From positions 43,503 to 107,502 of the forward strand of contig JAJDUK010000045.1 of the NCBI GenBank assembly GCA_022826665.1: 64,000 nt of DNA, written 5' to 3'. This document shows, piece by piece, positions 43,217 through 44,368 of the stretch. Within the stretch, counting starts at the first letter, position 1. Each line of letters opens with the position of its first letter. Source of the DNA: Alphaproteobacteria bacterium. GTDB taxonomy: Bacteria; Pseudomonadota; Alphaproteobacteria; UBA828. Under the pieces are notes generated by a model. The model ran no database searches and was not told the origin of the DNA. It was given only the letters and a program-made list of their open reading frames with translations. The position numbers were made by a program, and so were the translations under genes.

Positions 43217-43360
43217 GGCGTCGGTGGTCCTCGGTGACTTGGGTCTGCGGGCCGCGTCGCCAATCGCGCACCGCCCTCACGGCCGCGCATAAATCCTTTG
43301 CCGCGGCTTCCATCGGGCACCGCGATCGCCTATATTAGCGGGGCCGGCGGGAGACCGTCG

Positions 43361-43640
43361 ACTATGGCGATAAACGCTGCTCGAAATAAGCGTTGCGGAC
43401 CCGGGGGCAGTACCCGGCGCCTCCACCACCCCTTGAGTGGGCGGCTCAAGTTGCGGGGGCGAACCAGGATCGACGTGCGTGGTAAAGGTGTGGTTTTCGC
43501 CCGGCATGGTACCGCCGTTATCGGGCCAACTCAGAGGTGCGAACGACAACGAAGTCGCACTCGCTGCTTAGCATCGCTAGGTAAGCGCGGCTTGGGGGGC
43601 GCCGGGCAACAGAAGCCCCCCGCTAACCCGGTATGCCAGC
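43361..43640 (+). ncRNA. ssrA: Circularly permuted (two-piece) alpha-type tmRNA: acceptor piece to about 43428, coding piece from 43455; outer ends approximate
   Basis: T-stem CCGGG/CCCGG (43401-43405/43413-43417); acceptor CGCCTCC-A-CCA (43418-43428) pairs with GGGGGCG (43455-43461) including G3:U70 (43457/43422); tag GCG AAC GAC AAC GAA GTC GCA CTC GCT GCT TAG (43539-43571); H-type pseudoknot GGGGGG/CCCCCC (43594-43599/43616-43621) with CCGGG/CCCGG (43602-43606/43627-43631). Confidence 0.95.
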
Positions 43641-43746
43641 CGGGGTCATGAATCGTCAGACATCCGAACGAACGACGGGCTTCGCGCGCGTCCCGCGCGA
43701 CGCAGACCGTGACCGTGACGAGGCATCCGGGCTAAGCTAACCGGTG

Positions 43747-43797
43747 GCGGCGAACCAGCGTGGTTTGGGGGCATCGGGCAACGGCAGCCCCGGTTGA
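43747..43797 (+). other. Degenerate tmRNA-like mini-copy (5'-end-like segment joined to pseudoknot-like segment)
   Basis: ggcgaaccag…cgtgg matches the 5' end of the coding piece minus about 10 nt, followed directly by tttgggggcatcgggcaacggcagcccc resembling cttggggggcgccgggcaacagaagcccccc. Confidence 0.5.
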
Positions 43798-43819
43798 GCG
43801 GGCGGACACGGACGCGGCA

Positions 43820-44368
43820 ATGAGCAAGGACCTCATCGGTTACAACACGCTGGTCGAGAACGGCCTGCGCTCGGTGGTTCGCGAGGCCCTCCGCCGCGTG
43901 GCAGAGGAGGGCTGGCCCGGCACCCACCACGCCTACATTACCTTCAAGACCGCAGCGCCCGGCGTCGAGGTGCCGGATTTCCTGCACACGCGCTACCCGG
44001 ACGAACTCACGATCGTGCTTCAGCACCAGTTCTGGGGCCTGGAGGTCGAGGACGATTCCTTCTCCGTGACGCTGAGCTTCAACAAGGTGGGCCAGCGCAT
44101 CGTCGTCCCCTTTGCGGCGCTCACCAGCTACGCCGACCCGTCGGTCAAGTTCGGTTTGCAGTTTGGGGTCGCGCCGGAGGCGCGCGGAGAAATGACCGCG
44201 CCGGAGGCGCGCGGAAAGAAGGCTGAGCCGGAAGCGCGCGCAACAGGGTCGGTGCCGGCGGCAGGTGGGGAAAAGGCCCCGCCGGAGGCGGAAGCGGAAG
44301 AAGATACGGACGCGCCGGGGTCGAACGGCGAGAAAGTCGTTGCGCTCGACCACTTCCGCAAGAAGTAG
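43820..44368 (+). CDS. sspB: SspB, ClpXP adaptor for ssrA-tagged proteins (alphaproteobacterial type)
   Basis: LIGYNTLVENGLRSVVREALRRVAEEGWPGTHHAYITFKTAAPGVEVPDFLHTRYPDELTIVLQHQFWGLEVEDDSFSVTLSFNKVGQRIVVPFAALTSYADPS; basic C-terminal tail VVALDHFRKK. Confidence 0.93.
   Translation: MSKDLIGYNTLVENGLRSVVREALRRVAEEGWPGTHHAYITFKTAAPGVEVPDFLHTRYPDELTIVLQHQFWGLEVEDDSFSVTLSFNKVGQRIVVPFAALTSYADPSVKFGLQFGVAPEARGEMTAPEARGKKAEPEARATGSVPAAGGEKAPPEAEAEEDTDAPGSNGEKVVALDHFRKK
44171..44251 (+). repeat. 27-bp in-frame tandem repeat x3 in the sspB linker (APEARGEMT/APEARGKKA/EPEARATGS)
   Basis: Units start at 44171, 44198 and 44225. Confidence 0.85.

Follow-up and report, generated by a model that had tools for sequence, protein, structure and literature searches.

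A probable decayed copy of the tmRNA 3' pseudoknot in the sspB leader of an alphaproteobacterium

Why does the leader of sspB, which encodes a ClpXP adaptor, resemble a piece of the tmRNA gene lying just before it? The question arises in a 64-kb stretch of alphaproteobacterial DNA (64,000 nucleotides, here called the window), where a single, normal ssrA is preceded by thyX on the minus strand and followed by sspB. An initial annotation had taken the resemblance for a degenerate mini-copy of tmRNA, and proposed that it may be a decaying, internally deleted ssrA duplicate, an extra tmRNA pseudoknot, or a tmRNA-mimicking leader of the sspB mRNA. The features concerned are the following:

43304..43624, plus strand: ssrA, permuted (two-piece), alphaproteobacterial type (Rfam alpha_tmRNA RF01849, 226 bits; tmRNA_permuted RF04321, 147 bits; ARAGORN tag ANDNEVALAA)
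43586..43624, plus strand: pseudoknot at the 3' end of the ssrA coding piece (S1 43588-43591/43601-43604; S2 43594-43600/43615-43621)
43697..43738, plus strand: genus-wide promoter-like block upstream of sspB, core GTGACC-N18-TAAGCT (15 sites in its own genome; conserved before sspB in L031-L036)
43741..43777, plus strand: leader hairpin, whose 3' arm is the 5' half of the copy (fold z; strong in L032/L033, weakened in the window)
43758..43792, plus strand: sspB leader element, a probable degenerate copy of the 3' pseudoknot of ssrA (similarity scores, covariance model; orthologous in L031 and L032, strongly eroded in L033)
43820..44368, plus strand: sspB, ATG at 43820 (Pfam SspB PF04386, E=9.5e-41)

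Similarity between the sspB leader and the ssrA pseudoknot

The coding piece of ssrA terminates in an H-type pseudoknot with four pairs in S1 and seven in S2. Among 27 sequences from related loci its pairing is kept in 97% of cells, a level reached by none of 500 shuffles, with double-sided changes in 7 of the 11 pairs, and the window's pseudoknot scores 62.2 bits with the covariance model R1. In most of the sspB loci that were fetched (L031-L110) this pseudoknot lies about 300 nt or less upstream of sspB; tag RNA and adaptor gene are thus neighbours across many Rhodospirillales-like genomes, in a sample biased to relatives of the query.

The stretch of the leader that resembles the pseudoknot is about 35 nt long (43758-43792). 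When the leader (43737-43819) is compared with the window's own 3' pseudoknot the score is 33, equalled by none of 6322 background chunks; with one base trimmed from the pseudoknot it is 31, and 6 of 10000 shuffles score as high. Against nine common family-type pseudoknots the score rises to 41, which was found in none of 17350 background chunks (best background 31) and in none of 10000 shuffles (Gumbel p about 7e-5). The copy is therefore closer to the family type than to its own pseudoknot (41 versus 31-33), which is unexpected for a simple recent copy. Both strings quoted in the initial annotation are present in the window, and the alignment of 43455-43640 with 43720-43815 that it had called for gives a score of 35 (shuffles: mean 17.4, sd 2.7, 0 of 3000 as high).

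The covariance model of the pseudoknot is less discriminating. Within the 64 kb the leader copy is the top site outside ssrA (17.4 bits, E=0.1); in a genome-wide search it is not singled out (E=7.2), another site ranking higher and several unrelated sites equalling it, and the model misses the copies of L031 and L032. We therefore rejected the model as sole proof of a copy. Sequence similarity to the alphaproteobacterial tmRNA 3' pseudoknot is above chance, whereas the genome-wide covariance result is not significant, and because of this weakness much of the case is carried by the position beside ssrA and by the sister species. The same model gives one strong site per genome in eight congeners, so a second ssrA copy elsewhere was rejected.

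The copy shares about 34 aligned nucleotides with the 3'-terminal pseudoknot of alpha_tmRNA (RF01849), and S1, S2 and the GGCAAC loop follow in the same order in both. It differs in that the 5' strand of S2 is one base shorter and the outer S2 pairs are lost, in having neither tRNA-like domain nor tag, and in sitting behind a separate promoter-like block. In fact, Rfam and ARAGORN find no tRNA-like domain with a CCA end at 43720-43815, and 43741-43792 contains by sequence no tag reading frame with a resume codon, nor do the two programs find a tmRNA there. Lacking tag, tRNA-like part and coding-piece start, the copy cannot act as a tmRNA, and we see no sign of such activity.

The promoter-like pattern occurs at 15 sites in the genome, against none for the reversed pattern, and shuffles lead us to expect none in the window. 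Its 38-nt consensus, GCGACGCRGRCCGTGACCNTGGYGAGRCATSCGGGCTA, is found at window positions 43697-43734 and at 14 other sites of the genome (L201-L215), and also in congeners; the sites often lie a short way upstream of ORFs, and the length is unusual for a promoter. A mobile repeat was rejected as the source of the copy, since it is this preceding 38-nt block that recurs in the genome and the matches end before the copy. The promoter-like block (43697-43738), being conserved and lying between copy and ssrA, also makes the proposal of an extra tmRNA pseudoknot unlikely in the window; that proposal fits the relatives of Pelagibius described below.

Conservation and folding in the genus

Eight genomes of the genus are present in our collection. 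The leader can be aligned in four of them (the window, L031, L032 and L033); the other four, L034 to L037, are without the copy, and in L035 and L036 the sspB leader is about 27 nt shorter. In the comparison with relatives, which the initial annotation had proposed as a check, the copy thus occurs in four of the eight genomes. The leader of L031 scores 31 against the pseudoknot over the same 34-nt stretch, and through different preserved bases: its copy keeps CGCGGCTT, as does its own ssrA, where the window copy has CGTGGTTT. The window and L031 copies differ at nine sites, and at all nine one of the two carries the tmRNA base, a count that backs duplication without proving it and that is also matched by one unrelated ssrA register. 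In L033 erosion has gone so far that similarity is at chance level. The sspB tree is compatible with one origin of the copy, without proving it.

Read from the sequence, the window copy can form S1 as UGGU/AUCG (four pairs, two of them wobble) and S2 as GGGGC/GCCCC (five of the seven pairs). The initial annotation was right that the first stem could form; the second, which it had considered lost, persists in the window copy and erodes in the relatives. Over the four leaders S1 is kept in 94% and S2 in 74% of cells, with one S2 pair broken in three of four; S2 is eroded in L031, L032 and L033, so that the two stems are not kept together, and the copy stems have no double-sided changes. Between the window and L032 identity is 86% in the copy and 100% in the 26 nt that follow it, while 10 of 56 fourfold sites of sspB differ. 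The copy evolves about as fast as its surroundings or faster, without sign of slow evolution.

The hairpin at 43741-43777 has 15 pairs, 86% of whose cells are paired over the four leaders, a level not above column shuffles; two pairs have double-sided changes, with 156 of 500 shuffles as high in this set of four sequences only. Its fold z is -5.4 in L032, -4.2 in L033 and -1.5 in the window, and folding is less distinct in the window and in L031. A transcription start past the TAAGCT box at 43733-43738 would place the hairpin close to the 5' end of the sspB mRNA. An N-terminal extension of SspB from an in-frame GTG at 43760 was also considered and rejected: two single-base gaps in L033 break the frame there.

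Origin of the leader element

We consider it likely that the element is a decayed partial duplicate of ssrA, namely of its 3' pseudoknot, in the sspB leader. Duplication is favoured because the similarity exceeds both shuffles and genomic background, because L031 matches through different bases, because ssrA adjoins, and because the relatives of Pelagibius show duplication of the same kind, with as many as four extra units in tandem; decay is favoured because the copy diverges no more slowly than its flanks, S2 pairs are lost in relatives, and L035 and L036 are without it. The proposal of a decaying ssrA duplicate is accordingly the best supported of the three options of the initial annotation, for a piece of about 35 nt and not for a whole gene with an internal deletion. 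That larger construct, with the coding-piece start joined to the 3' pseudoknot, we hold to be highly improbable. GGCGAACCAG...CGTGG is indeed present in the window, and GGCGAACCAG resembles the coding-piece start there above shuffles (3 of 2000); in the orthologous leaders of L031, L032 and L033 it is absent and the resemblance is at chance level, so that it is probably fortuitous and the copy is better read as pseudoknot alone. Nor is the claimed junction with about 10 nt lacking supported, as CGTGG aligns to S1 of the pseudoknot itself.

The main rival, an unlikely one in our judgement, is chance: a leader rich in GC and containing an inverted repeat would come to resemble a GC-rich tmRNA pseudoknot, and the element would merely be a leader hairpin. 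The genome-wide E=7.2 with several unrelated sites of equal score, the lack of similarity in L033, the nine-site count obtained also from an unrelated register, and a single origin unproven by the sspB tree all weigh against duplication, and the hairpin accounts for part of the conserved sequence. However, chance does not sit well with a score of 41 unmatched in 17350 background chunks and 10000 shuffles, with similarity that extends past the hairpin (GGCAACGGCAGCCCC), with the independent match in L031 and with the immediate adjacency of ssrA. A functional leader, in which a pseudoknot of the sspB mRNA binds a tmRNA partner (e.g. SmpB or ribosomal protein S1) and couples sspB expression to trans-translation, is very unlikely, even though the window copy can form both stems, S1 is well kept over the four leaders and sspB adjoins ssrA in most loci examined. 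The stems lack covariation, S2 is eroded in all three sisters, the copy is no better conserved than its flanks, four congeners do without it, and in two sisters the competing hairpin folds strongly. Harder still to credit is the specific proposal that such a bound, tmRNA-derived pseudoknot sets the level of the SspB adaptor to the demand for trans-translation.

Under the preferred duplication, an ancestor of part of the genus would have acquired a copy of the ssrA 3'-terminal pseudoknot, about 35 nt, in its sspB leader, probably by a local template switch during replication. The copy would have been inserted roughly 135 nt downstream of the original, between the sspB promoter and the start codon. 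Afterwards it would have decayed, or been co-opted, as part of an ordinary leader. In two sister species at least, sequence upstream would pair with the 5' half of the copy into the hairpin, which lies close to the predicted 5' end of the sspB mRNA and may have a modest effect on the stability or translation of the message.

Recurrence in Pelagibius relatives and meaning

We compared the 300 nt following ssrA with the locus's own pseudoknot in 83 loci, and the strongest positives were the relatives of Pelagibius and the window clade. In the former (L057/L155, L161, L048/L158, L044/L157, L052/L159, L066/L160) one to four extra tandem units derived from the 3' pseudoknot abut ssrA with a period of about 31-33 nt: four in L155, two in L161, one in L158, and in L157, L159 and L160 units that are partly degenerate. 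They mostly retain the S2 hairpin, in L160 by way of a C-G to U-A exchange, and have lost S1. Like the window copy, they are extra copies of the 3' element between ssrA and sspB; unlike it, they directly abut ssrA, in a regular period, with S2 mostly kept and S1 lost. By sequence comparison, such duplication of the pseudoknot is recurrent, and independent in the relatives of Pelagibius. A known parallel is the tandem pk4a/pk4b of one-chain cyanobacterial tmRNA (PMC1168896), where a tmRNA pseudoknot likewise appears as two smaller neighbouring elements; those lie within the mature tmRNA, whereas the window copy belongs to the leader of the gene downstream and not to ssrA. The element is not described in the openly accessible papers covered by our literature search.

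The copy is mainly an evolutionary curiosity, of little import alone, and it illustrates the duplication of a folded RNA element into the leader of an adjacent gene, followed by decay. A functional leader, if it were one, would connect the tag RNA with the adaptor by which tagged proteins are delivered. Moreover, the recurrence in relatives of Pelagibius points to a tendency of the 3' pseudoknot in two-piece tmRNA to be duplicated locally, which may be a source of the variable numbers of pseudoknots among tmRNAs.
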